Assembly: GCA_937859835.1 (NCBI GenBank)
Contig: CALMAN010000035.1
Location: forward strand, 1-32,670
Length of the DNA stretch: 32,670 nucleotides
Reading direction: 5' to 3'
Origin: an uncultured Acidipila sp.
GTDB lineage: Bacteria; Acidobacteriota; Terriglobia; Terriglobales; Acidobacteriaceae
Made by a program: the position numbers and the translations under genes. How positions within the stretch are numbered: position 1 is the stretch's first letter; each line of letters opens with the position of its first letter. A model generated the notes under the pieces. That model saw nothing but the letters and a program-made list of their open reading frames with translations, did not search any database and was not told where the DNA came from. This document shows, piece after piece, positions 890 to 29,855 of the stretch.

Positions 890-3208
890 ATGGATGCGGT
901 TCAAGGTATCTGTCCTCCAAGATCCACCCAGGGCCTGGCTCGGCTTGGCGGGTCGCCCGCTGTTTTCCACGAAACCCACGCCACGCGCAGCAGCGGGGAA
1001 CTGCAGTCAGAACTCGACGCCGCGCATGCCATGCTCGAAACCAGCTCGCTCATCCTCGAGTCGGTGGGAGAAGGAATTCTTGGTCTTGACGGCAATGGCC
1101 TGACGACGTTTGCAAACCCGGCCGCCGTAGCGATGACAGGCTGGCAGGTGCAGGATCTGATTGGGAACGTGCAGCATGAGCTGCTCCATCACTCTCACGC
1201 GGATGGCCGGCCATACCCGCGGGAAAAGTGCCCCATCTACATGGCGCTGCGGGATGGACGTGTTCATCGGAGCGACAGCGAGGTGTTTTGGCGGAAAGAC
1301 GGCACCTCGTTTCCGGTCGCCTACACCAGCACGCCGATTCTTCGTGACGGCAAGCCGGTTGGCGCCGTGGTTCTGTTTCTGAATATTTCAAAGCGAAAGC
1401 GGCGGGAAGAATGGGAAAAAAGTAGAAACCAGATTTTTGCCGCGATCACAAGCCACGCCAAGCTGGAAACAACGCTGGCTTTGATCGGGGAAGCCTTTGC
1501 GGCGCTTCACCCGGGAAAGCCGATCGCCATCCTGCTTCGCGAGGCAACCAGGCTCAACCTGGTGGCTAACGTAGGGCTCCCCAGCGCTGTCCAGGATCTT
1601 TTCGCTGCCGGCCAGGGACTGGCGGCGGACTGGCACGAGACTTCGGTTTGCGCCCGCGCTGCTGAAAAAGGCGAAACCATTCGGGCCCGACGGGAAGAGG
1701 TCCATGCCGGCGCGCTGCCTTACCGGGAGCTGGCCGAGTCTGGCTACCGCTCCTGCTTGGCCGTCCCCCTGCTTTCCGGATCGCAGCAGGTGCTCGGAAC
1801 AGTGGCGGTTTTTTCAAACCAGGATGGCGGTCCGGACGATGAAGAAACCAAGGCGGTCGACCGCGCCTGTGAGCTGGCGCGCTTGGCGATTGAACACAGT
1901 CAGCTTCATGCGCAGCTGCTGCGCCAGTCGCAACATGACTACCTGACCAGTCTTCCCAACCGTTTGCTGCTTGAGGACCGGTTGGAGCAGGCGCTGCGGC
2001 AGAGTCGGCGCCAGGGCACCATGGTAGCCGTCTGCTACCTCGACCTTGACCGGTTCAAGCAGGTCAATGACACGCTAGGGCACAGCGTGGGAGATGCTTT
2101 TCTGCAGCATGTGGCAGGGGTTCTCAAGAGGAATCTGCGAGAAATCGACACCGTCGCACGGCAGGGTGGCGACGAATTTATCGTGGTCCTCCCTAGCCTC
2201 AGCTCGGAAAAGGAAGCCGAAGAAACCTGCGAGCGCGTTCTTGCGGACTTGCGCAAGCCCGTGACCATCGGCAGGCATACGCTTACGCCAACCGCCAGCC
2301 TCGGCTTCAGCATGTACCCCGAATGTGGTGCATCCGGGCCGATGCTGCTCCGCAATGCAGACTTTGCCTTGTACGCGGCAAAGCAGGCCGGAAGGGACCG
2401 GGTGCAGCGCTACCAGCGATCCCTTGGCGAAAAGCTCTCAAAGGAGATGGAACTCCAGAAGGAGCTCCGTGGCGCGCTCGAAAGGAAGGAGTTTTTCGTT
2501 GCATACCAGGCTTTGTACAGCAGCGGAAGGCAGCTTCGCGGCTTTGAAGCCCTTCTGCGCTGGCAACATCCTCAGCTGGGACTTGTGAGCCCTGAGTTGT
2601 TTGTTCCGCTCGCTGAGGAAAACGGCCTGATCCTTCCCATCGGTGAGTGGGTCCTCACCGAAGCATGCCGGGAGGCGGTCGACTGGAATCGTGGACGAGC
2701 CAAACCCTTGCAGATGTTTGTAAACATTTCGAAGAAACAGCTGGCCCGGCAGGAGTTTCCGAGAACCGTTGCCCGCATCCTCGAACACAGCGGTCTCGCC
2801 CCGCACTTGCTGGAGCTGGAAGTCACCGAGGGCTGCGTTCTCGCAGATCCGGAGGTGGCCGCGATGCGCCTTCGCGAGCTGCGTGATCTGGGCGTCGGCA
2901 TCTCGATCGACGATTTTGGCACGGGTCACTCCTCCTTCAGCTGTTTGCAGCAGCTGCCGGTCAACACCCTCAAAATCGACCGCTCCTTTATCGCCAGACT
3001 CGATGGGACAGAGACCGGTTCGGCGATCATTCAAGCCATCGTCGCGCTTGCCAGGCAGCTTGGCCTGCAGACGGTTGCCGAGGGGGTGGAAACAGACCTG
3101 CAGATGGAAGAGCTGCGGGAGATACACTCCGGCCTTGTGCAGGGCTATCTGCTCGCAAAGCCGCTTGCTCCGGATGCAGTACGCCGCCTGCTCGACGAGG
3201 GCAAGTGA
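890..3208 (+). CDS. PAS-GAF-GGDEF-EAL bifunctional cyclic-di-GMP enzyme
   Basis: A 772-residue cytosolic protein that can be expected both to make c-di-GMP (GGDEF) and to degrade it (EAL). Domains in order: PAS at about 53-170, GAF at about 185-335, GGDEF at about 345-510, EAL at about 525-768. The synthase signature GGDEF is intact at 426-430. The inhibitory RxxD site (R417, D420) sits at the normal distance before it, so product inhibition is expected. The hydrolase half keeps EAL (553-555), the VNIS asparagine, the VTEG glutamate, DDFGTG, the LKID lysine, EGVET and QGY, so it looks active too. The PAS carries HHSH (100-103) followed by DG, YP and Cys114, as does the hybrid kinase at 13123. 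The ATG at 890 follows GAAGGG closely. A small inverted repeat CGGCA/TGCCG (867-879) lies just upstream and could affect initiation. No membrane segment is seen. Confidence 0.95.
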   Translation: MDAVQGICPPRSTQGLARLGGSPAVFHETHATRSSGELQSELDAAHAMLETSSLILESVGEGILGLDGNGLTTFANPAAVAMTGWQVQDLIGNVQHELLHHSHADGRPYPREKCPIYMALRDGRVHRSDSEVFWRKDGTSFPVAYTSTPILRDGKPVGAVVLFLNISKRKRREEWEKSRNQIFAAITSHAKLETTLALIGEAFAALHPGKPIAILLREATRLNLVANVGLPSAVQDLFAAGQGLAADWHETSVCARAAEKGETIRARREEVHAGALPYRELAESGYRSCLAVPLLSGSQQVLGTVAVFSNQDGGPDDEETKAVDRACELARLAIEHSQLHAQLLRQSQHDYLTSLPNRLLLEDRLEQALRQSRRQGTMVAVCYLDLDRFKQVNDTLGHSVGDAFLQHVAGVLKRNLREIDTVARQGGDEFIVVLPSLSSEKEAEETCERVLADLRKPVTIGRHTLTPTASLGFSMYPECGASGPMLLRNADFALYAAKQAGRDRVQRYQRSLGEKLSKEMELQKELRGALERKEFFVAYQALYSSGRQLRGFEALLRWQHPQLGLVSPELFVPLAEENGLILPIGEWVLTEACREAVDWNRGRAKPLQMFVNISKKQLARQEFPRTVARILEHSGLAPHLLELEVTEGCVLADPEVAAMRLRELRDLGVGISIDDFGTGHSSFSCLQQLPVNTLKIDRSFIARLDGTETGSAIIQAIVALARQLGLQTVAEGVETDLQMEELREIHSGLVQGYLLAKPLAPDAVRRLLDEGK

Positions 3209-3626
3209 TCGGCTGTGGAGCAGGGGCACCGTACCGCGTTCCGTTTGCAGCGCTCTAGGCTCGGCCTGCTCTACGGTCCGAGCTGCTACTCGTTGCCTGC
3301 GCATCGGCATGTGCAGGAACGCATCCAGTGTCGCTCGTCCAGCAGCACCGGCGTCCTGCGTGCCGCTCTGGTTTTCCGGCAGTGCAGGGCGGCCTGCCCC
3401 GCCCCGGCCGCATTCCGAGGGGACGTTACTCTCGGAACCTGTAATTGTGAACGGCATGTGTCGATAGTGAAGCCACAACAACAGCAGTGACGAATGCTCG
3501 AGTCGCGGTCGTCTGCTCCATGTGCGTCGGCGTCTTGGCGGCCTTCAACGAGGTGCGCACGGACGAGCTGCGCCCCATGGGCTCCGAGCGCTTCTGGAAG
3601 TGTTGGATTGGTCTCGGGGGTACCGC
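3209..3626. other. 418-bp spacer before cheA, no convincing gene
   Basis: This spacer separates the c-di-GMP gene from cheA. It holds a perfect 7-bp inverted repeat (3413-3437), followed by a -10-like TGTAAT at 3440-3445. A 57-codon frame starting GTG at 3487 and ending at 3660 overlaps the start of cheA. It has no ribosome-binding site and resembles no family known to me. The cheA frame is open back to 3522, but that extension shows no conserved character. Confidence 0.6.
3413..3445 (+). promoter_or_regulatory. Inverted repeat and -10-like box upstream of cheA
   Basis: TTCCGAG (3413-3419) and CTCGGAA (3431-3437) form a perfect 7-bp inverted repeat around an 11-nt spacer. TGTAAT at 3440-3445 matches the sigma-70 -10 consensus at five of six positions, but no good -35 box lies 16-18 bp upstream. 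The repeat would cover about -50 to -25 of such a promoter, where a dimeric regulator could bind. It could equally be an RNA hairpin. The leader to cheA would be about 175 nt. Confidence 0.3.
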
Positions 3627-6335
3627 GTGGATTTGGACGAGGAAGTACGGGAGTTCCTGATTGAGTGTAATGAGAACCTGGCGAACCTCGACCGGGAAGT
3701 CGTACTCCTTGAGCAGCGCCCAAAAGACGCGAAGTTGATCGCGAGTGTTTTTCGTACGTTTCACACCATCAAGGGAACGTGCGGCTTTTTTGGTTTCAGC
3801 ATTCTGGGCGCTGTGACCCACATCGCTGAGAACATCCTTGATCAGGTACGGAGCAGCCAGCGAGAACTCACGCCAGAGCTTACCTCGCTCATCCTTCAAA
3901 CCGTGGACGCGATCAAGGCGCTCCTGTCGGAGATAGAAAGCGAGGGTTGTGAAGGCAAAAATGAATACCACGACCTGCGCAAGCGGCTCACCGATGCCTT
4001 CCAGTACGCCACCACTGCCCCCGATGCGCAAAGCGCTTGTGCCGAGCCTGAGCCGAGCGTCAAGAGTCCTGCGGAGCCGGTGGCGGAGCTTCCGCCGCAG
4101 ATGCAGCAGGCGCCGGTTGCGGAACCGCCTGCCGTCGCCGCTACGGCGCCAATGAAAGAGGTGGAAGCCAGCGTTCCGAGCGATGAGGCTGGCTCCCAGA
4201 AGCACTCCGTTGTGCTCGACTCGACCATCCGCGTTGACGTCGGACTGCTCGACAAGCTCATGAACCTGGTCGGCGAGCTGGTGCTTGCCCGCAACCAGCT
4301 GCTCCAGGGCACCTCCGGGCAGGACGGCGTGCTGATTCGCACCGTGCAACGGCTCAACGTAATCACCAGTGAACTGCAGGAAGGCGTCCTCAAGACGCGC
4401 ATGCAGCCGATCGGCGTCGTGTGGAACAAGCTGCCGCGTGTGATTCGCGACCTGGCTGCGGAATGTGGCAAAAAGATCAACATCGAGATGGAAGGCGCCG
4501 AAACCGAGCTCGACAAAACCATCATCGAGGCCATCAAGGACCCCCTGACGCATATCGTCCGGAACTCTTGCGATCACGGCGTCGAGATGCCGGAAGTGCG
4601 CCTGGGCAAGGGCAAGCCGGCAGAAGGCCTGGTGCTGCTCCGCGCGTTCCATGAGGGAGGTCACGTCAACATCGAGATTTCGGATGACGGCGGCGGTCTT
4701 AACCCCGAAAAGCTGAAAGCGCGCGCCATCCAGAAGGGGCTTATCCGTAGCGAGCAGGCGGCAATGATGACAGAGCGCGAGGCCGTGCACCTTGTCTTCA
4801 TGCCTGGATTTTCAACCGCCGAGCAGGTAACCAAGATTTCTGGCCGGGGCGTCGGCATGGATGTCGTCAAGACAAACATTCAGAAGATCGGCGGCATCGT
4901 AGACATCTTCAATCGCCCGGGCGCTGCCGGCTCAACAGTAAAGATCAAGATCCCGCTCACGCTCGCCATTATCCCGGGCCTGATCATCAAGGCACACGCC
5001 GGCGGAGCCGGCGAGATGGCCGGGGAAGAACATCGGTTCGTCATCCCGCAAGCAAACCTGATTGAACTTGTCCGGCTCGACCGGGAAGAAGACCGTAAGC
5101 AGATCGAGTATGTAAACGGCATCCCCGTGTACCGGCGCCGCGGGCAACTCCTGCCCCTTACCTATCTGAACAGCGTACTGGGCATGGATGATTGCATTTT
5201 CCCTTCATCGGATGCAGTGAATATCGTGGTGCTCCAGGCAGAAGACCGGCCTTTCGGGCTGGTGGTGGACGGCATCTTCGACACGCAGGAAATTGTTGTG
5301 AAGCCGCTCGGCAAGCGCCTAAAAGGCTTGAGCTCCTACCTTGGTGCCACCATCATGGGCGACGGCCGCGTGGCACTGATCCTGGATGTTCCGGGCCTGG
5401 CGCGGCTTGCAGGCATCGTCTCTCAAGCTCGCGACGCGAAGCGGCACGAAGCGTCAACAGCGGACACTTGCCCCGAAGTACGGCAGACCTTCTTGATCTT
5501 CCGAGCCGGCAGCTTTCAGCGACTTGCTGTCCCGCTCGCGCTCGTGTCCCGGCTGGAACAGTTTCCACGCAAAACCGTCGAGCTGGCTTCAGGCCAGCCT
5601 GTACTGCACTATCGCGAACGCATTCTCCCGCTGCTCTACCTGAGCAAACTGCTTGACCCTGGCAGCGAAAGCGGAGGCGCCGGGAGCGAGACGATCCAGA
5701 TCATCGTCTTCGACGAGGGCACCAGGCGCGTCGGCATCGTGGTGGACCAGATCGTCGACATCGTCGAGGAAGCTGTGACCTTTACGCAAAGCAGCACGCA
5801 CGTGGGCCTGCTTGGCTCGGCGGTCATCGGGGGCACCATCACAGACCTGATTGATCTCCATATGCTGCTGCGTGAAGTTTCTGGCAGCGGGTCTCTGACG
5901 TACGACCTGGAGGCGAACGCGCTGAACACGCTGCTCATCGTCGACGAGTCCCCCCTTGAAGCCACCATGCTTCGTGGCTACCTGGAGATGTGTGGCTATG
6001 CGATTGCGGATGCTGGCTGCCTCAAGGACGCCCTGGAGTTTCTGCACGCGTTTCCTCGCACCGATCTTGTCATCGCATCTTTGAGCCTGCGAACGCAGAT
6101 CGGGCCTGACCTGCTTGCTGCGGTGCGCGCAACGCCCGCACTGCGCCACATACCTGTCTTGGCGATCACAAGAGATCAGGCGACGGCTTCGCGCGGCCAG
6201 CACTTGGATGGGGAGTTGCACTTCGACGGGCTTGAAGATGCTGACGATCGAGCGCAGCTGCTGCAAACCATCCGCCAACTTCTTCGCGTCCGGCGGGAGC
6301 CGGTCACCGCAGTCGGAGCAGGCCATGGCCGATAA
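3627..6335 (+). CDS. cheA: Chemotaxis-type histidine kinase CheA with two CheW-like domains and a C-terminal pseudo-receiver
   Basis: Central kinase of the chemosensory array. It autophosphorylates on a histidine and passes phosphate to CheY and CheB. In 902-residue numbering: Hpt P1 with FHTIKG (His46); a Pro/Ala/Glu-rich linker at about 130-195 in place of a P2 domain; dimerisation P3 from about 202; kinase P4 with the N box HIVRNSCDHG (about 309) and GRGVGMDVV (about 406); a first CheW-like domain at about 445-600 and a second at about 618-750; a receiver-like domain at about 766-888. That last domain keeps VDES, but the phospho-acceptor position is Ser818 (codon 6078-6080, TCT) and the conserved lysine is absent, so it should not accept phosphate. 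GTG at 3627 was chosen because GGGGG lies 6 nt upstream and the protein then starts at the conserved VDLDEEVREFL. A TTG at 3603 is the alternative. Confidence 0.93.
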   Translation: MDLDEEVREFLIECNENLANLDREVVLLEQRPKDAKLIASVFRTFHTIKGTCGFFGFSILGAVTHIAENILDQVRSSQRELTPELTSLILQTVDAIKALLSEIESEGCEGKNEYHDLRKRLTDAFQYATTAPDAQSACAEPEPSVKSPAEPVAELPPQMQQAPVAEPPAVAATAPMKEVEASVPSDEAGSQKHSVVLDSTIRVDVGLLDKLMNLVGELVLARNQLLQGTSGQDGVLIRTVQRLNVITSELQEGVLKTRMQPIGVVWNKLPRVIRDLAAECGKKINIEMEGAETELDKTIIEAIKDPLTHIVRNSCDHGVEMPEVRLGKGKPAEGLVLLRAFHEGGHVNIEISDDGGGLNPEKLKARAIQKGLIRSEQAAMMTEREAVHLVFMPGFSTAEQVTKISGRGVGMDVVKTNIQKIGGIVDIFNRPGAAGSTVKIKIPLTLAIIPGLIIKAHAGGAGEMAGEEHRFVIPQANLIELVRLDREEDRKQIEYVNGIPVYRRRGQLLPLTYLNSVLGMDDCIFPSSDAVNIVVLQAEDRPFGLVVDGIFDTQEIVVKPLGKRLKGLSSYLGATIMGDGRVALILDVPGLARLAGIVSQARDAKRHEASTADTCPEVRQTFLIFRAGSFQRLAVPLALVSRLEQFPRKTVELASGQPVLHYRERILPLLYLSKLLDPGSESGGAGSETIQIIVFDEGTRRVGIVVDQIVDIVEEAVTFTQSSTHVGLLGSAVIGGTITDLIDLHMLLREVSGSGSLTYDLEANALNTLLIVDESPLEATMLRGYLEMCGYAIADAGCLKDALEFLHAFPRTDLVIASLSLRTQIGPDLLAAVRATPALRHIPVLAITRDQATASRGQHLDGELHFDGLEDADDRAQLLQTIRQLLRVRREPVTAVGAGHGR

Positions 6336-6789
6336 GGATCTGCTCGCTGGCGACCTGGGAGAGACCAGGCAGTTTGCCACCTTCCATGTAGGGGACCTGT
6401 TCTTTGGCATCGAGGCGATCCGGGTACAGGAGGTCATCCGGCACCAGGAGATGACACCTATCCCGCTCGCACCCCCTGCCATACAAGGCTTGATCAATCT
6501 TCGCGGGCAGATTGTCACTGCGGTCGACACCCGTCGCATGCTGGCCCTGCCACCGCCGGCAGTTGGAAAGCGGCCGATGAACATCATCATCAAGGCTGAA
6601 GATGGCGCCGTCAGTCTGCTTGTGGATGAGATTGGCGATGTACTCGAAGTGCCCTTGAACTCGTTTGCTCCGGTACCCGATAACGTCCCTGCACCCCAGC
6701 GCGACCTCGTCGCCGGTGTGTACAAGCTAAGACACCAACTTATGCTCGCTCTGGATTCCGAGCGGCTCTTGGAAAACGCCTGCCACTAG
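6325..6789 (+). CDS. cheW: CheW coupling protein
   Basis: A 154-residue single-domain CheW that links receptors to CheA in the array. Visible family features are [47 protein letters not shown] (the signature LRG block) and [15 protein letters not shown] at 6325 overlaps the last 11 bases of cheA (stop 6333-6335), with GGAG at 6315-6318 as ribosome-binding site, so the two are probably translationally coupled and made in fixed proportion. The same frame is open further upstream inside cheA, but that part is only the shadow of cheA. The receptor gene follows 31 bp later. Confidence 0.95.
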
Positions 6790-6820
6790 GCAGCCCAGCT
6801 ACTTTCTGACGGAGAACACC

Positions 6821-9745
6821 ATGGCTACTGCAACTCGCAAACCCACTGCCGACCGCATCCCGGCTACGACGCCGCCCAGGGTAGCTGCCCCTTCACGCAA
6901 TGGCAACAGCAAGAGCGCCGAGCGTCATCTGCTCGCCACCCTTGCCGCCATCAGCACCACCCAGGCAGTCATCGAGTTCCTGCTGGACGGCACCATTGAC
7001 GCCGCGAACGACAACTTTCTGAACACAATGGGCTACCGGCTGGACGAAATCAAGGGCAAGCACCACAGCATGTTTGTGGAGCCTTCCGAAGCGCAAGGTC
7101 GTGAGTACCAGATGTTCTGGGATCGGCTGCGGCGTGGCGAGCACCAGACCGCGGAGTTCCGCCGCCTGGCGAAAGGTGGCCGCGAAGTCTGGATCCACGG
7201 CTCCTACACCCCCTTGCTTGATGGCAATGGCCAGCCCTACAGGATCGTGAAATGTGCTACTGACATCACCGAACAGAAGCGGCTCAACGCGAACTTCGAG
7301 AGTCAGCTCAGGGCCATCAGTAAGTCGCAGGCAATCATCGAATTTAAGCTCGACGGCACCATCCTGACCGCGAACGACAACTTCCTCAAGCTCATGGGCT
7401 ACTCGCTTGCTGAGATCAAGGATCGCCATCACAGCATCTTTGTAGATAAGGACACAAAGGTGAGTGAGGAGTACCGGGCTTTCTGGGAAACCTTGAACAC
7501 GGGTGAGTACCAGTCAGCCGAGTACAAGCGTGTAGCCAAAGGTGGAAGGGAAGTCTGGATCCAGGCCTCTTACAACCCCATCTTTGACGCCAGCGGCAAG
7601 CCCTACAAGATCGTCAAATTTGCCTCGGATGTGACCGAGCAGAAGCGGCTCAACGCGAACTTCCAAAGCCAGGTGAAGGCGATCAGCAAGTCGCAGGCCG
7701 TCATCGAGTTTCTCCTGGATGGAACGATCATCACGGCCAACGATAACTTCCTCAAGCTGATGGGCTACACGCTGGCTGAGGTGAAAGACCGCCACCACAG
7801 CATGTTTGTCGACAGGGATTACAAGGAGACCGACGAGTACCGCGAGTTTTGGGAAGCGCTCGGCCGGGGCGAGTACCACACGGCCCTGTACAAGCGCCTA
7901 GGCAAACGTGGGAAGGAAGTGTGGATTCAGGGCTCTTATAATCCCGTCTTTGACGCGAACGGCAAGCCCTACAAAGTCATCAAGTTTGCCTTGGACGTGA
8001 CCGAGCAGAAGCAGCTCAACGCCAACTTCCACAGTCAGATTCTAGCCATCAATAAGTCGCAAGCTGTCATCGAGTTCAATCTCGATGGAACCATCATCAC
8101 CGCGAATGACAATTTCCTGAAAACCATGGGGTACACGCTCGCCGAGATCAAGGATCGTCACCACGGCATCTTTGTCGACAAGGACTTCCGGGCCAGCGAT
8201 GAGTACCGGGACTTCTGGGAGGCGCTTGGACGGGGCGAGTACCAGTCGGGCACCTACAAGCGCCTGGGTAAAGGCGGCAGGGATATCTGGATCCAGGGCT
8301 CGTACAATCCCATCTTTGATGCGAACGGAAAAGCCTACAAAGTCGTCAAGTTCGCGATTGATGTAACCGAGCAGACACGCGTGAATGCTGACTTCCAAAG
8401 CCAACTCAAAGCCATCAGCACCTCGCAGGCGGTTATTGAGTTTGAGCTCGATGGAACCATCATCACGGCTAACAGCAACTTCCTGGAAGCCATGGGCTAC
8501 ACGTTGGCTGAGGTTCAGGGGCGCCACCACAGCATGTTTTGCGAGAAGGAGCTCAAGCATAGCGTGGAGTACCGGGAGTTCTGGCAGGCTCTCGCCCGTG
8601 GCGAGTACCAGTCCGGCGAGTACCGGCGCGTGGGCAAAGGGGGTAGGGAGGTCTGGATTCAAGGCTCCTACAACCCAATCTTCAACGCTCTTGGAAAGCC
8701 ATACAAGGTGGTGAAGTTCGCTCCTGACGTGACTGCGCAAGTTGAAGCGCGGCGGGAACACGCGAAGCTGCAGGAAGAGGAGCGGCGGCGTACAGCGGAG
8801 CTTGAGGAGAAAGTGGCGAAGATACTGGACGTTGTCCAAGCGGCCCGCGATGGCGACCTGACCAGAACCATCGAAGTTGCAGGGGTGGACGCGATCGGGC
8901 AGCTTGGGACCGCTCTCAAGAGTTTCTTTACGACTCTGCGGCAGAACCTCACCTCAATTGCAAGCGCCGCGAAAGATCTAGGGTCGTCCTCGGAGGAGTT
9001 GTCGATCATCAGCGAACAGATGGCGAGCAACGCGGAGGAGACCGCCACGCAAGCGTCCGTGGTTTCCCGGGCGAGCGACGACGTCTCGAAAAACGTGACC
9101 GTCGTCGCTGCAGGCAGTGAGGAGATGCAGGTCTCCATCCGCGAAATCTCCAAGAGCGCCAACGAGAGCGCCCGTGTTGCCCAAAATGCGGTCACAGCGG
9201 CGAATGCTACCAATCAGACCATCAGCAAGCTTGGGCAGTCGAGCCTCCAGATTGGCAAGGTGGTCAAGGTCATCACCTCCATCGCACAACAAACCAACCT
9301 GCTGGCGCTCAACGCAACCATCGAAGCGGCTCGCGCAGGGGAGGCCGGCAAAGGCTTTGCGGTTGTCGCGAATGAAGTGAAGGAACTGGCCAAGGAGACA
9401 GCAAAGGCCACCGAAGAGATCGGCCAGAAGATCGAGGCCATCCAGAGTGACACTTCGAGCGCGGTGCATGCTATCGAAGAGATCAGCTCGATCATCAACC
9501 AGGTCAACGACATCTCGAATACGATTGCGTCGGCTGTTGAAGAACAAACCGCGACGACCAACGAGATCGGCCGCAGCGTAGCGGACGCCTCGCGCGGCGT
9601 CAGCGAGATCGCTACAAACATCTCGGGAGTAGCCGTGGCGGCACAAAGCACAACCACGGGAGCGGCCGGCACTCAAACGGCAGCAAAGACCTTACACGGC
9701 ATGGCCAACGATCTCCAGGAGCTTGTGTCGCACTTCAAGCTGTAG
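6821..9745 (+). CDS. Soluble methyl-accepting chemoreceptor with five tandem PAS domains
   Basis: A 974-residue receptor that should control CheA through CheW. After a 40-residue basic, Pro/Ala-rich start come five PAS domains, each exactly 122 residues (about 44-165, 166-287, 288-409, 410-531, 532-653). Each has the pattern DGTI.AN.NFL..MGY, then HH, then FW, then VW(I)..SY.P. A HAMP-like segment follows (about 660-730), then the signalling coiled coil (about 745-974) with the canonical hairpin tip [16 protein letters not shown] near 820-853. There is no signal peptide or membrane helix, so the receptor is cytosolic. It ends LVSHFKL and lacks the C-terminal pentapeptide used to tether CheR/CheB in enteric receptors. 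The PAS type resembles that of Aer/BdlA-like receptors; whether these bind haem, flavin or nothing cannot be told here. Confidence 0.96.
6950..8779 (+). repeat. Five tandem 366-bp coding repeats (PAS units)
   Basis: The equivalent codon of each PAS unit (ATC of the AIS/AIN motif) falls at 6950, 7316, 7682, 8048 and 8414, a constant spacing of 366 bp with no insertion or deletion. The units are diverged at the DNA level, units 2 to 4 being most alike. Key variation: the residue after the HH motif block is FV in units 1-4 but FC in unit 5 (HHSMFCEKE), and unit 1 has DAAND where the others have TAN. Confidence 0.95.
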
Positions 9746-9905: not shown

Positions 9906-11042
9906 GTGACATCCGCAGCGTTGGCACCAAGAGCTACTCGCCCCAAGCGCATCCTGGGTGCCGGTCAGAAGATCCGTGTTCTTATCGTCGATGATTCCGT
10001 CGTGGTTCGCCGACTGATCACGCATGCCTTGAAGGATGATGATGAACTGGAAGTTGTTGGAAGTGCCTCGACCGCAGCAAGCGCTTTGCAGAAGATTCAA
10101 CTGCTGAAGCCGGACCTGCTGACGCTGGACATTAACATGCCGGGGATGAGCGGCCTAGAGCTGCTCCCGATCCTGCGCGAACGGCATCCGGATATCCGGG
10201 CCGTCATGGTCAGCACCCTTACGGCCCACGGTGCATCGAGCACCCTGAACGCCCTTACGTTAGGAGCCAGCGACTATGTGAGCAAGCCGTCAGGCGATGC
10301 TTCGCTCGCGCCTGCCCTGGCCACACTGCAGGCCGAACTCGTTCCAAAGATCAAGCAACTGTTCCGCTTTCCTTCTGAGACCCGCTCTTCTTCGCTGATG
10401 GAGCCCTCGGCGCCGGCGGTTACGACTGCGCCGCCTGCCCGGGTTTCCTCGTCTACCCAGCGTCGCATCGAGCACCAGGTGCTCGCGGTAGGAGTCTCCA
10501 CTGGGGGTCCTACTGCCCTCGCGACCTTCCTGGCAGGTTTTCCTTCGGATTTCCCGCTGCCGATCGTGATTGTGCAACATATGCCGCCGGTGTTCACAAG
10601 ACTTCTCGCCGACCGCCTGCGCGCTCTCACTGGTTTCAACGTCGTCGAGGCGACCGCGGGCATGGTGCTCGAACCAGCAAAAGCCATTGTTGCGCCAGGT
10701 GATTACCACATGCGGGTGCGGCGTGCCGGTACTCAGGTGAACGTCACGCTGGATCAGGAGCCGCAGGAGTGTTCTTGCCGGCCCTCGGTGGACGTGCTCT
10801 TCCGGTCTGTCAGGCAGGTCTTTGGCGCGACAGCAATCGGAACAGTGCTTACGGGGATGGGGCAGGATGGATTACGGGGCGCCGAAGAACTGAAGCGCGG
10901 GGGAGCCTACATGATCGTCCAGGACGAAGCGTCCAGCGTGGTCTGGGGCATGCCCGGCGCTGTCGCCCAAGCAGGTTTTGCCGACGAGGTGCTTGACCTC
11001 AGTCTGATTCCAACCGCCATCATGAAAAGAACAGGACGTTAA
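9906..11042 (+). CDS. cheB: CheB protein-glutamate methylesterase/deamidase
   Basis: Phosphorylation-activated enzyme that removes methyl groups from receptor glutamates, opposing CheR. The 378-residue protein has an N-terminal receiver (about 24-130; VDDS, phospho-acceptor D75 in LLTLDINMPGMSG, STLTA, SKPSG), a Ser/Ala/Pro-rich linker and a C-terminal esterase. The catalytic triad is visible: Ser198 in GVSTGGP, His225 in VQHMPP and Asp321 in GMGQDG. GTG at 9906 is preceded by GAGGAGAGAAGA, a strong ribosome-binding site. cheR follows after 2 bp. All key residues are intact, so it should be active on the receptor encoded upstream. Confidence 0.97.
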   Translation: MTSAALAPRATRPKRILGAGQKIRVLIVDDSVVVRRLITHALKDDDELEVVGSASTAASALQKIQLLKPDLLTLDINMPGMSGLELLPILRERHPDIRAVMVSTLTAHGASSTLNALTLGASDYVSKPSGDASLAPALATLQAELVPKIKQLFRFPSETRSSSLMEPSAPAVTTAPPARVSSSTQRRIEHQVLAVGVSTGGPTALATFLAGFPSDFPLPIVIVQHMPPVFTRLLADRLRALTGFNVVEATAGMVLEPAKAIVAPGDYHMRVRRAGTQVNVTLDQEPQECSCRPSVDVLFRSVRQVFGATAIGTVLTGMGQDGLRGAEELKRGGAYMIVQDEASSVVWGMPGAVAQAGFADEVLDLSLIPTAIMKRTGR

Positions 11043-11044
11043 GC

Positions 11045-11905
11045 ATGGCCCTTGCTGGCGGTAAGCATTTCCAACCTGCGACAGATGCCCGCAGGCTTCA
11101 AGCGATCTCGGCAGAAAGCTACAACTTTCTCCAGCAGTGGATCCACCGCGAATCGGGCATTGTGATCGACAAAGACAAGAGCTACCTCTTGCATTCCCGT
11201 CTGGCTCCAATCCTTGAGCGCGAAAATCTCGCCTCTCTTGAAACCTTGTGTGGCCGGCTCCGCGGCGGAGCGCCTCAGGTTGCCCGCCAAGTGGTCGAAG
11301 CCATGACCACAAATGAGACTCTCTTTTTTCGCGACGCAGCTCCGTTTGACGCATTGCGCCACCACATTGTGCCGCAGCTCCTGGCGAAGCGGAAGGGTCA
11401 AAAGCTGGCGTTCTGGTCTGCGGCGGCCTCCTCGGGCCAGGAGGCGTATAGCCTGGCGATGTTGCTACTCGATCTGGGTCTGAAAAGCCACGAAGTCGAT
11501 ATCTTCGGAAGCGACTTGTCGGATGAAGTTCTGAGAAAGGCTGAGCTAGGCCTTTACGGAAGATTTGAGGTGAGCCGTGGCTTGCCGCCTGAGTACCTTG
11601 CCCGGTACTTCGACTGCCGAGGAGCAGAGTGGCAAGTGAAGGAGTGTGTACGTCGCATGGTTCGCTTCCAGCACTTGGACCTGCGCAGTAACATACGCGT
11701 GCACGGACCATTCGACGTCATTCTCTGTCGAAACGTTCTTATCTACTTCGATGCGGAGACGAAAGTCAGAATCCTTACCGAACTCCGGCGAACCCTTCTT
11801 CCCGGAGGCTTCTTGCTGCTGGGAGCCGCAGAAACTGCAAATGAGCTAGTTAAGGGCTTCAAACGAGTCGTTTTTGGTCAGGCTGTTGCTTATCAGGCGA
11901 GTTAA
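11045..11905 (+). CDS. cheR: CheR chemoreceptor methyltransferase
   Basis: Uses S-adenosylmethionine to methylate receptor glutamates during adaptation. The 286-residue protein has the helical N-terminal domain, NETLFFRD at 90-97, the SAM-binding loop AFWSAAASSGQEAYSLAM at about 122-139, IFGSDLS and the C-terminal CRNVLIYFD motif. The loop reads SSGQE where enteric CheR has STGEE; this form is common outside the enterics. It starts 2 bp after the cheB stop, so the pair is co-translated. There is no TPR extension or pentapeptide-binding evidence, in keeping with a receptor that lacks the tether. Confidence 0.97.
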   Translation: MALAGGKHFQPATDARRLQAISAESYNFLQQWIHRESGIVIDKDKSYLLHSRLAPILERENLASLETLCGRLRGGAPQVARQVVEAMTTNETLFFRDAAPFDALRHHIVPQLLAKRKGQKLAFWSAAASSGQEAYSLAMLLLDLGLKSHEVDIFGSDLSDEVLRKAELGLYGRFEVSRGLPPEYLARYFDCRGAEWQVKECVRRMVRFQHLDLRSNIRVHGPFDVILCRNVLIYFDAETKVRILTELRRTLLPGGFLLLGAAETANELVKGFKRVVFGQAVAYQAS

Positions 11906-12071: not shown

Positions 12072-12437
12072 ATGGACATACTGTTAGTGGACGATAGCAA
12101 GACGATGCGCTTGCTTGTGCAGCGCGCGATACGGCAAGCGGGATTTCGAGGCCTTGTAGTGGGTGAAGCCGAAAACGGTGCGCAAGCTCTCGAAAAGCTT
12201 CGTGGAGAGAAGCCCAAAGTAATTCTGTCGGACTGGAACATGCCTGAGATGTCGGGTATTGACTTTCTTACTCAAGTCCGGGCGTCGCAGAACAAGGTCC
12301 CTTTCGGCTTCATCACATCAGAAGCGTCTGCGCAGATCAAGGATCTGGCGATGAACTCGGGAGCTAACTTCCTGATCACGAAGCCTTTCACCCCGGAAGA
12401 CGTGCAAGCAGTGCTGTCTCCCATCCTAGGGGCTTAA
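12072..12437 (+). CDS. cheY: CheY-type single-domain response regulator
   Basis: Diffusible phospho-receiver, the likely output of CheA. At 121 residues it is only a receiver: VDDSKTMR with the acidic pair, phospho-acceptor D54 in ILSDWNMPEMSG, the threonine in FITSEAS and the lysine in ITKPF. ATG at 12072 is preferred because it gives the compact receiver start MDILLVDDSK. The frame is open back to ATG 12000, but the 24 extra residues are not receiver-like and lack a ribosome-binding site. It lies 166 bp after cheR and 6 bp before the CheX/CheC-like gene, so kinase output and its possible phosphatase are made together. What it acts on (motor, pilus or enzyme) cannot be read from this window. 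Confidence 0.95.
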   Translation: MDILLVDDSKTMRLLVQRAIRQAGFRGLVVGEAENGAQALEKLRGEKPKVILSDWNMPEMSGIDFLTQVRASQNKVPFGFITSEASAQIKDLAMNSGANFLITKPFTPEDVQAVLSPILGA

Positions 12438-12443
12438 GAGCAA

Positions 12444-12911
12444 ATGTCAGAACCTACAGCGCACGCGTTTACACAGATGTTTTCGCAACTCACCGGCCGA
12501 CAAGTGTCCTTTACCCAACCGAAGGCTGCTACGCCGTCGACTGCCAAACAAATGTACGGCCTTTACACGGTGCTTCCACACGAAGCCCCAATCGTTGTGA
12601 AGTCCGACCTAGCACTGCTCGGATCCTTTGCCGGCGCTCTGGTGGGGCTTCAAGATGATGCCGTGAAAGATCGGCTCAAGCAGACGCCGCTCGACGAGCT
12701 GCTCCGGGATGCCATCCATGAGGTGCTCAACATCTCCGCAACCCTGGTCACGAACGAGGGGCGGGCGGTTTTCAAGAAAATGGCTGCAGACCCGGTGTAC
12801 TTTGACAACTTCGACGCGCAGCTTCTTCAAAAGCCGGATCGCAAGACGGCTTTCGACGTGTCGGTCGAGGGGTACCAAGGGGGCAAGTTCACGATCTTTG
12901 CCCGGCTTTGA
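12444..12911 (+). CDS. CheC/CheX-like protein, candidate CheY-P phosphatase
   Basis: A 155-residue cytosolic protein with no obvious named family match by eye. In the middle it has LRDAIHEVLNISATLV. D89, E93 and N96 there fit the D/S-x3-E-x2-N active-site pattern of the CheC/CheX/FliY phosphatases, in which Glu and Asn act on CheY-P. Only one such motif is present, as in CheX. The flanks also look CheX-like: a strand-rich start, a GGKFTIFARL end and LLGSFAGALVGL before the motif. It begins 6 bp after cheY. The position and motif together support a phosphatase role, but this is inference. The alternative is an unrelated small chemotaxis-cluster protein. Confidence 0.7.
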   Translation: MSEPTAHAFTQMFSQLTGRQVSFTQPKAATPSTAKQMYGLYTVLPHEAPIVVKSDLALLGSFAGALVGLQDDAVKDRLKQTPLDELLRDAIHEVLNISATLVTNEGRAVFKKMAADPVYFDNFDAQLLQKPDRKTAFDVSVEGYQGGKFTIFARL

Positions 12912-13122: not shown

Positions 13123-15210
13123 GTGGTGACTTACATCCAGACTGCTGCCCTTAATGCAAGTGCGCCGCGTGCGAAGGCGGCGGATGAGTTCGAACTGGAG
13201 GAGAACCGGGCAAAGCTCATTCTCGGTGCAGTCGGGGAAGGCATCTACGGAGTCGATGCAGATGGGCTTACCACCTTCTGGAATCCTGCTGCCGAGCTTC
13301 TTACAGGTTGGAAAGCCTGCGAAGTGATCGGGATGTCACCCCATGAGTTGATTCATCACTCCCACTCGGATGGAAGCGCCTACCCGTACGAGGCCTGCTC
13401 TCTGCTGAGGACGATGAGCGATGGCTTGGCTCATGTCGACAATGAAGTGTTCTGGCGCAAAGACGGAACCGCGTTTGCTGTGGAGTGCACGGCCACTCCC
13501 ATCTTTCTTCATGGTCTTTACGCGGGCGCAGTCGTAGTCTTCAAAGACATCACGGAACGAAAGCGACGCGAAAAGACAGATCTTGCGGCCAGCCAGGCAA
13601 GAACGGACTTCCTCAGTAACGTCAGTCATGAGATCCGCACGCCAATGAATGGCGTTCTCGGAATGATCCAGCTGCTCCTCAATACGAAGCTCACTCCGGA
13701 GCAGAAGCACTATGCCGAGATCGCTCACAGCAGCGGCAGAACACTGTTGGCGTTGCTCGACGACATCCTTGATCTTTCGAAGATCGAGGCCGGTAAGACC
13801 GTCCTGGAAAGGCTGAACTTTGATCTAGCGGCCACGCTGAATGATGTGGTCGGTATGTGGCGCGTCCAAGCGTGTACAAAGGGGCTTGCTTTCCACCTCA
13901 GGGTCGCGCCGGAAACGTCCGTGAGTTTCTGCGGCGATCCAGTGCGACTGAGGCAGATACTAAACAATCTAGCTTCAAACGCCATCAAGTTTACCGAGCG
14001 AGGCACGGTGTCTCTCAGCACGGACACCGTCACCGACGAAGATGGAGGTTGTATGCTCCGCTTCTCGGTCACGGACACAGGCATAGGCCTGAGGCCGGAC
14101 CAGGCAGAACGGTTGTTTCTACCGTTCGTTCAGGCTGATTCCTCGACGACACGAAAATACGGGGGCTCTGGCCTGGGACTCATCATCTGCAAGCGCCTTG
14201 TAGATCTTATGGGTGGAAAGATCGGCATTGTTAGCCAAGAAGGGCTGGGCTCTACCTTTTGGTTCACGATTCCTTTGGACTGCACGGCTCCATCGCAGGT
14301 GCTGGCGCCTGGAACTGCCTCAGAAGCGTCCGCTCCAGACGAGGTTGGCGGACCGAGTTGCCGGACAGCGGGCAGCCAAGTTGTTGCACCGAGGGAAGCG
14401 AAGCGCAACACGGTCCCCGAAGATGGGTGTCGCATCCTCGTCGCCGAGGATAACAAGACAAACCAGGTAGTCATCATGGCGCAACTGCGGAAGCTGGGCT
14501 ATCAAGCCGATGCAGTCAACAATGGCGCTGAAGCAGTCGAGGCGATGCGGCGAGGCCACTATGACATCGTCCTCATGGATTGTGAAATGCCGACCATGGA
14601 CGGGTACGAGGCAACGCGGCAGATACGCAGCCTCGGCACGCAGCACGTGCCGATCATCGCTTTGACCGCGCACGCTATGTCATGTCACCGAGAGCTTTGC
14701 CTAAGCGCGGGGATGGATTACTTTCTTTCGAAGCCCCTTGATCTGCAAAGACTTGCGCGGGTGCTCGAGCAACATCGCCCAGGCAGTCCACTGGCCGCAA
14801 CAATCCCGGAGCCTACTCCTGTTTCCATTCAGTCGACCGCCAAGCTGGCGATTTTTGATGCGCAGGCGATGCTGAACAGGCTTATGGGCGACCGGAAGCT
14901 TGCCGAGGCCGTCATCGGAGGCTTTGTGGGGGACTGTCCACAACAGCTGGCGATCCTCAAGGCGCGCGTCGCGGAACAAGACGGCCCGGGCGTTCGTTTG
15001 CAGGCACACGCACTCAAAGGTTCGGCGGCATCGGTGTCGGCTATCCGTCTTTCCACCATCGCTCTCGCCATAGAAACAGAGGCGGCAAGCCAGCGGTTGG
15101 CTGGTTGCAGCCAGCTACTCTCGAGCGCGGCCGAAGCTCTAGACCAGTTCACCCAGGAGTTAGCCACCACAGGGTGGCTGAAGAATCTTGATTACGTTAC
15201 ACAGGACTGA
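13123..15210 (+). CDS. PAS hybrid histidine kinase with receiver and Hpt domain
   Basis: A 695-residue phosphorelay kinase. Domains in order: PAS (30-145), dimerisation/phospho-acceptor HisKA (His169 in [13 protein letters not shown]), HATPase ([23 protein letters not shown]), a Ser/Ala-rich linker, receiver ([10 protein letters not shown]486 in [18 protein letters not shown]) and a C-terminal Hpt (His629 in HALKGSA). The His-Asp-His chain is complete, so phosphate can leave through Hpt to an outside receiver; the receiver gene 4 bp downstream is the obvious candidate. The PAS carries HHSHSDG (78-84) and Cys92, closely matching the PAS of the c-di-GMP enzyme at 890. There are no membrane segments. 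Start: GTG 13123 with GAGGG 7 nt upstream; GTG 13126 is the next codon. Confidence 0.95.
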
Positions 15211-27812: not shown

Positions 27813-27824
27813 GCCGTGGACGGC

Positions 27825-27833
27825 TGGTACACT
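27825..27833 (+). promoter_or_regulatory. Extended -10 promoter candidate for argS
   Basis: TGG directly followed by TACACT gives an extended -10 element facing argS, with transcription expected near 27840 and a leader of about 39 nt. There is no clear -35 box. It has the same TGG-hexamer form as the rpsP candidate. Confidence 0.4.
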
Positions 27834-27878
27834 CAGCGGAACCGAACAGCAGTACCGAAGGGGAACGGCAGGGCACAC

Positions 27879-29855
27879 GTGTATCTGGCCGCACAACAAA
27901 GGCTCGCCGCGCGGTTGCGCGCGGTGCTACAGCAGTTGTACTCGGTCACGCCGGCTACCCTCGCCATCGAGCAGCCGCCCGAGATCCGGCTGGGCGAGTA
28001 CGCGGTGCCGGTTGCCTTTGAGCTGGCGCGTACCCTGCGCAAGGCGCCTCGCGCGATCGCCGCCGAGATGGTTGCGGCGCTGGGCGCGGTCGAAGGCTTC
28101 GCCTCCTTTGAGGTTGCGGGCGCCGGCTATATCAATGCCCGGCTCGACCGCGCTGCCGCCGTCCGTTCCCTTGCCGCCGGGGTTCCCGACGCGCGCGCAC
28201 ACGCTCCCGGCCATGCGCTGGTTGAGCACACCAGCATCAATCCGAACAAGGCCGCGCATGTGGGCCACCTGCGCAATGCGATCCTTGGCGACACGTTTGT
28301 GCGCCTGCTGCGCGCGACCGGCGACCGCGTGTCCGTGCAGAACTATATCGACAACACCGGCGTGCAGGTGGCGGACATTGTGGTAGGCCTCGAAAACTTG
28401 CTGGGGCTTTCGCTCGACGGGGTGGAAGGCTGGATCGCGGGGCTGCGCGAGCCGATCGACTATGCCTGCTGGGACCTGTACGCGCGCACCTCGCAGTGGT
28501 ACACAGCGGGCTCGCCTGAGGAGAACGCCGCGCGCAAGCAGTTGCGGCTCACCACCCTGCACCGCCTGGAGGAGGGTGGGAACCAGACGGCCGCAATCGC
28601 CGAGCGCGTGGCGACCGCCATTGTGCGCAGGCACCTGGAAACCATGCTGCGGCTCGGCATCGAGTACGACCTGCTGCCGCGGGAAAGCGAAATCCTGCAC
28701 CTGCATTTTTGGGATGCGGCCTTTGCGCAGCTCAAGGAGAAGGAGGTGTTGCGGCTCGAAACCGCGGGTAAGAACGCCGGCTGCTGGGTGATGCGCAGGG
28801 CAGGCACCGAGCCCGCCGCCGGAGAGGCCGAGATCGACGAGGACGCAAAGGTCATTGTGCGCTCCAACGGCACCGTGACCTATGTCGGCAAGGACATCGC
28901 GTATCACCTTTGGAAGTTCGGGCTGCTGGGCCGCGATTTCGGCTACCTGCCTTTTTTCCCCTACGCGGACCATACCTGCTGGATCACAGCGGTCGCAGGC
29001 GAGCCCGAGCACCCGCACTTCGGAGGCGCCGACGCAATCTACAACGTCATCGACGCACGCCAAAGCGATCCGCAGGCCAACGTGATCGAGGCCATGCGCG
29101 GGCTTGGCTACGCCGAGCAGGCCGCGCACTACACTCATTTCTCCTACGAGATGGTGGCGCTGACCCCGCGCTGTGCGCTGGAGCTGGGCTACGCGGTAGC
29201 CGAGGAGGACCGCGGACGCGCCTATATCGAAGTGTCGGGCCGCAAGGGATTCGGTGTAAAAGCCGATGACCTGATCGAGCGACTGCTGGCCGCGACCCGG
29301 GCTGAAGTGGAGGCCCGCAACCCGGAGCTCGGCGAGCTGGAGCGCGAGCAGACGGCGCAGCAGATCGCAGTGGGCGCGCTGCGCTACTTCATGCTCAAGT
29401 TCACGCGCAACACGGTGATCGCGTTTGACTTCAAGGACGCGCTTGCCTTTGAAGGCGAGACCGGCCCGTACCTGCAGTACGCCGTCGTGCGCACCCGTTC
29501 CATCTTTCGCAAGGCTGGCGTCACCCCCGTAGCGGCCCTCGCGGCAGCAGCTTCGCCCGACGCGGCCCGGTACCTGCAAGGCGAGCAGGGCGACAGCATC
29601 TGGCAGGTGTGGCTGCGCGCCGCCAAAACCGGCCTGGTGCTGCAGCAATGCCGCGAAACGGCCGAGCCCGCGCACCTGGCGCGGCACTGCTTCCAGCTTG
29701 CGCAGGACTTTTCTGCTTTCTACCGCAAGCACCACATCCTGACCGAGGAAGACCCGGCGCGCAAGGCCCTGCTGCTGGCAACGGCAGCCATCACCGAGCA
29801 AACGCTGGTACGCTCGCTCGCCGTGCTCGGCATGGAGGCGCCGGACGTCATGTAG
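27879..29855 (+). CDS. argS: Arginyl-tRNA synthetase
   Basis: Charges tRNA-Arg. The 658-residue protein has the N-terminal additional domain, the HIGH-type motif in NPNKAAHVGHLRNAI, VSVQNYIDNTGVQVAD, the KMSK-equivalent region EVSGRKGFGVKADDL and the C-terminal anticodon domain with DALAFEGETGPYLQYA. It is longer than the roughly 580 residues of the E. coli enzyme, mainly through insertions in the catalytic part. GTG 27879 has AGGG 5 nt upstream; the frame is open to ATG 27816, but those 21 residues are unlike the family. No arginine biosynthesis gene is near. Confidence 0.96.
   Translation: MYLAAQQRLAARLRAVLQQLYSVTPATLAIEQPPEIRLGEYAVPVAFELARTLRKAPRAIAAEMVAALGAVEGFASFEVAGAGYINARLDRAAAVRSLAAGVPDARAHAPGHALVEHTSINPNKAAHVGHLRNAILGDTFVRLLRATGDRVSVQNYIDNTGVQVADIVVGLENLLGLSLDGVEGWIAGLREPIDYACWDLYARTSQWYTAGSPEENAARKQLRLTTLHRLEEGGNQTAAIAERVATAIVRRHLETMLRLGIEYDLLPRESEILHLHFWDAAFAQLKEKEVLRLETAGKNAGCWVMRRAGTEPAAGEAEIDEDAKVIVRSNGTVTYVGKDIAYHLWKFGLLGRDFGYLPFFPYADHTCWITAVAGEPEHPHFGGADAIYNVIDARQSDPQANVIEAMRGLGYAEQAAHYTHFSYEMVALTPRCALELGYAVAEEDRGRAYIEVSGRKGFGVKADDLIERLLAATRAEVEARNPELGELEREQTAQQIAVGALRYFMLKFTRNTVIAFDFKDALAFEGETGPYLQYAVVRTRSIFRKAGVTPVAALAAAASPDAARYLQGEQGDSIWQVWLRAAKTGLVLQQCRETAEPAHLARHCFQLAQDFSAFYRKHHILTEEDPARKALLLATAAITEQTLVRSLAVLGMEAPDVM

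Follow-up and report, generated by a model that had tools for sequence, protein, structure and literature searches.

The analysed window is a stretch of 32,670 nucleotides from contig CALMAN010000035.1 (assembly GCA_937859835.1) of an uncultured Acidipila sp., and it contains a chemotaxis cluster in which a short gene directly follows cheY (Table 1). Just upstream of the cluster and on the same strand, an ORF at 890-3208 codes for a PAS-GAF-GGDEF-EAL protein. In the arginyl-tRNA synthetase ORF (27816-29855), the best catalytic-domain Pfam stretch covers 61 residues only, and this protein is possibly divergent. The C-terminal receiver of CheA (residues about 805-894) appears degenerate when read by eye, with DLVIAS at the acceptor-Asp site and VDES remaining in the acidic-pair region. 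Because DLVIAS replaces the acceptor Asp in this by-eye assignment, the receiver is an unlikely phosphate sink. The genome also codes for FliG and FliM, and thus the host is probably flagellated.

Table 1. Coordinates of the chemotaxis cluster and of the motif residues in the window
Feature	Position	Strand	Remarks
cheA	3522..6335	+	Hpt, kinase core and CheW domains; C-terminal receiver without phospho-acceptor Asp
PAS-rich methyl-accepting chemotaxis protein	6821..9745	+	Pfam/NCBIfam scans
cheB	9906..11042	+	Pfam/NCBIfam scans
cheR	11045..11905	+	Pfam/NCBIfam scans
cheY	12072..12437	+	Conserved partner; ORF listed from 12000, homologues start at Met 12072
Gene under study	12444..12911	+	ATG ORF, 155 aa; predicted single-site CheY-P phosphatase of the CheC/CheX/FliY/FliM superfamily
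Motif helix, residues 85-102	12696..12749	+	AlphaFold2 model of the window protein
D89 codon GAT	12708..12710	+	First position of the D/S-x3-E-x2-N motif; two second copies have S
E93 codon GAG	12720..12722	+	Predicted acidic catalytic residue contacting the CheY active-site Lys, mechanism as in PMC3035606
N96 codon AAC	12729..12731	+	Predicted water-positioning amide, mechanism as in PMC3035606; top conserved column
Separate hybrid histidine kinase	13123-15210		Downstream of the gene under study

A sequence-only reading of this DNA had proposed that the 155-residue product is a CheX/CheC-type phosphatase with a single motif (D89, E93, N96), coupled to cheY by a 6-bp gap, and had named residue conservation, profile-profile comparison, and a predicted fold as checks. 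The ORF translation and the motif count agree exactly with this description of the product, with D-x3-E-x2-N and E-x2-N each occurring once, and the gap is the same (cheY ends at 12437, and the next gene starts at 12444). D-x3-E-x2-N arose by chance in 0.9% of 20,000 residue shuffles of the protein; taken alone, without conservation, the motif would be weak evidence.

The gene family is sparse, because solid members were found in only 21 of 398 same-family genomes and matches in only 7 of 396 genomes across the phylum. A search of 100 relatives gave 3 genomes with the gene, the window's own among them, and a scan of named genomes found homologues in Silvibacterium bohemicum and Granulicella aggregans. 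The same-family genomes were searched with a profile from five sequences, which matched in 23; G280, where the match reads as a CheX-like protein, and G403, with a 41-residue match containing a stop, were excluded from the members. The phylum-wide search used a 24-sequence profile; G595 is the one match outside the taxonomic family, and G155, with a match of only 36 residues, was excluded. A 39-residue match in G312 (L032) was left out of the copy count. A search of plasmids for the gene family gave no match. The 24-sequence alignment (A4) omits L006, L007, L008, L010, and L011, which duplicate genes already in it, and retains near-identical rows such as L023, L024, and L025.

In this alignment, N96 was kept in 24/24 sequences and ranked first of 155 columns by conservation. 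E93 was kept in 23 of the 24, with D in the remaining one (L031), and ranked 8 of 155, while position 89 (rank 12 of 155) was D in 22 and S in two (L030, L031). The first motif position also varies in genuine CheX proteins, being S in Thermotoga and A in Borrelia in alignments read by eye. According to PMC3510030, CheX depends on an acidic residue together with an amide (ExxN), and E93 and N96 fit this requirement exactly. Its conservation across the 24 homologues lifts the motif above chance. That it arose by accident in an unrelated, uncharacterised protein is hardly credible: about 1% of shuffles contain the motif and no curated family matches the protein, but conservation, a matching fold, and pairing with cheY all speak against it. 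Two unpaired second copies, L093 (9485-9952) and L094 (9633-10100), lie near a cheR-like gene and have S at position 89. L093 also carries D instead of the catalytic E93, and because of this replacement the copy may be drifting or repurposed.

The neighbourhoods of 25 gene copies from 22 genomes were compared, taking in roughly 10 to 19 kb per copy. In 22 of the 25, the gene is immediately preceded by a same-strand cheY, with -4 to 32 bp between the two; each of the other three is a second copy whose genome also has a paired one. The coupling to cheY is thus stronger than the sequence-only reading had stated. CheY of the window type (E<=1e-30) was found in 3 of the 100 relatives, exactly the three gene-bearing genomes; this co-occurrence is supportive and not decisive, because two of these genomes belong to one genus and the E<=1e-30 threshold was self-chosen. 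The window CheY keeps the DD pair, the phospho-Asp, N at D+2, T, E at T+2, and Lys, as do all 22 paired CheYs. In a phylogenetic tree, the paired CheYs were set apart from 16 further CheYs encoded in their clusters, with a support of 0.988 for 15 of these 16 and a weak support of 0.50 once L084_12695 joins. In addition, the distance matrices of the 22 CheY/phosphatase pairs correlated with r 0.90, a value to which shared ancestry contributes and which none of 2000 permutations reached. The enzyme is probably specific for its paired CheY, because the cheY-phosphatase pair travels as a two-gene module. A second CheY type was present in the same clusters (L075-L080, L082-L084, L086, L087, L089, L091, L092, and L095). 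It often has D-I-N / S-T-D at D, D+1, D+2 / T, T+1, T+2, in contrast to D-W-N / T-S-E in all paired CheYs, and it may have a different output.

Current protein-family libraries miss this branch. The window protein had 0 matches in Pfam and NCBIfam at E<=1, and thus none to the FliM or SpoA/FliN models, which were also not listed for any of the 24 homologues. Among these homologues, PF13690 (CheX) was touched only once, with an E of 0.049, and by none at the cut-off. Neither CheC (PF04509) nor CheZ (PF04344) matched the window protein or the host genome, and PDB sequence searches, run with the protein as well as the family profile, returned unrelated weak matches only, with no CheX or CheC. The sequence-only reading had suggested that no other gene of the cluster supplies an enzyme for CheY-P removal. 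The Pfam scan of the cluster agrees, and the statement extends to the whole host genome (95.6% complete), in which no PF13690, PF04509, or PF04344 match was detected.

A relation to CheX was visible at the profile level. The comparison set (A6) contained 31 CheX sequences, 30 of them PF13690 matches in relatives and one encoded beside the Silvibacterium homologue. With hhalign, which used 21 of the 24 family sequences, the family matched this set with a score of 34.5 (E 5.5e-5, probability 66%), and D89, E93, and N96 fell on the D, E, and N of CheX, consistent with the sequence-only reading. The highest score among 200 column shuffles was 19.8, and the reversed profile scored 17.6. When residues 86-99 were masked, the score dropped from 34.5 to 20.0, barely over the best shuffle, indicating that the link to CheX comes mainly from the motif helix. 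The HMM of the 24-sequence alignment detected 8 of the 31 CheX sequences at E<1 (Z=1000; best 1.5e-4), and the five-sequence profile had picked the CheX-like protein in G280 unaided (E 0.0046, residues 16-100). A FliM profile also matched, over residues 35-91, with a score of 21.0, which 2 of 200 shuffles matched or beat; a FliM ancestry from sequence was dropped at this near-noise level.

AlphaFold2 monomer models were made for the window protein and the Silvibacterium homologue, each from a 3-sequence alignment. The window model had a mean pLDDT of 70.3 and a pTM of 0.65. The homologue gave the better model (pLDDT 83.3, pTM 0.77), with four of its five runs poor (mean pLDDT 34-40). For both models, all Foldseek rows above the unrelated ones were FliY/CheX/FliM/CheC-type chains with a probability of at least 0.57, and the top match of the window model was FliY (4HYN). 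VIA Z to superfamily chains was 7.8-12.0 for the window model and 8.2-15.3 for the better model, and the next unrelated rows were at 2.3 and 2.9, respectively. By their shared alpha/beta fold, the models place the protein inside the CheC/CheX/FliY/FliM superfamily, in line with the fold check of the sequence-only reading. In the window model, FliM chains (Z 10.2-12.0) were about level with the best CheX chains (10.7-11.1), and CheC chains (1XKR, 2F9Z, 3QTA) had Z 10.1-10.3. The better model leans to FliM/FliY: the FliM middle domain (4GC8 and others) came first with Z 12.8-15.3, followed by FliY (12.4), CheC (11.3-11.8), and CheX-type chains (8.2-10.1). Because of this order, the protein is placed in the superfamily and outside CheX proper.

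The same order could suggest a protein that descends from the FliM/FliY arm and serves as a CheY-P-binding scaffold, a phosphate-state reader, or a switch accessory, its motif helix binding with little or no catalysis. The weak FliM profile match and the second copy with D for E93 (L031) point in the same direction. However, binding alone needs no exact CheX catalytic pair, and N96 and E93 are among the most conserved columns; the FliM profile match hardly rises above noise, and the protein has no FliM or SpoA/FliN match in Pfam. FliM is a rotor protein and is not known to carry the catalytic motif, and in contrast to FliM and FliY the 155-residue protein is a stand-alone domain. A non-catalytic role is thus considered unlikely, and a phosphatase remains the preferred reading.

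The protein resembles CheX (1XKO, 1SQU, 3HZH) in its length of about 155 residues, its single E-x2-N on the central helix, the D or S mostly four residues ahead of E, the motif register, and its setting in a chemotaxis operon. These likenesses, together with the CheX sequences detected by the family HMM, would fit an ordinary, fast-evolving CheX that falls under the PF13690 cut-off. This explanation is very unlikely. No member reaches the cut-off, and a proline past the motif helix, invariant in 31/31 CheX sequences, falls in an unconserved column of the family alignment, so that the conserved proline region of CheX is missing. The better model is nearer to FliM, FliY, and CheC than to CheX, and a canonical CheX is encoded immediately beside the gene in several genomes. 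At L004, for example, the gene (6001-6462) is followed by a CheX-like gene (6512-6961) in a tandem cheY - new phosphatase - cheX, and the same tandem occurs in L075, L077, L079, and L083.

The family often coexists with canonical CheX. PF13690 was found over the cut-off in 15 of the 21 gene-bearing genomes, so the new protein is not the sole phosphatase candidate in most of its hosts. The six genomes without PF13690 (G000, G001, G032, G283, G312, and G376) include incomplete ones. In the first 100 relatives, all three gene-bearing genomes lacked PF13690 and 51 of 57 other same-family genomes had it, which first suggested mutual exclusion. A functional replacement of CheX by the gene was refuted by the full set.

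CheC carries two catalytic motifs, in contrast to the one motif of the 155-residue protein, which resembles CheC in its fold and in the D/S-x3-E-x2-N type of its motif. CheZ would share the proposed job of removing phosphate from CheY-P, but its fold differs from the CheC/CheX/FliY/FliM fold. The CheZ motif is also different, being DxxxQ according to PMC3510030. Neither of the outcomes that the sequence-only reading had named as refuting, a foreign fold or unconserved residues, was seen. Its assignment to a CheX/CheC-type phosphatase is upheld for the superfamily fold and the conserved motif, and it does not hold for CheX or CheC proper, given the missing model matches at the cut-off, the single motif, the absent CheX proline, and the better model's greater similarity to FliM, FliY, and CheC than to CheX. 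The family is best read as a new branch within the CheC/CheX/FliY/FliM superfamily. No report of it was found in a literature search, which is weak evidence of absence given the thin coverage of subscription journals. New here are the conserved private pairing with one CheY lineage, a position that leans to FliM/FliY and lies outside both CheX proper and CheC proper, and the finding that no other CheY phosphatase was detected in the genome.

Taken together, the motif, the predicted fold, the pairing, the co-occurrence, and the lack of another detected CheY phosphatase in this genome make it likely that the gene encodes a single-site phosphatase that acts on the adjacent CheY once it is phosphorylated. 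The small soluble protein would bind the CheY-P encoded just before it and act through one active site, located on the long central helix of the superfamily fold. In the docked complex, N96 would position the water for in-line attack on the aspartyl-phosphate of CheY, with E93 bound to the CheY active-site lysine. Hydrolysis of CheY-P would then end the signal to the flagellar motor, and in this way the protein may affect motility. More tentatively, the family may form an unrecognised branch lying structurally between FliM/FliY and CheC/CheX and forming a portable two-gene module with its private CheY, in which one dedicated phosphatase per CheY could insulate parallel pathways.

The speed of chemotaxis is set by CheY-P removal, and a phosphatase can seem to be missing from a genome annotated with CheZ, CheC, and CheX models. 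The family described here would fill this gap in some Acidobacteriota, including the named relatives Silvibacterium and Granulicella. Genomes that combine two types each of CheY and phosphatase in one cluster offer a natural test of the specificity between phosphatase and CheY, and the family may be an intermediate between rotor proteins and phosphatases.
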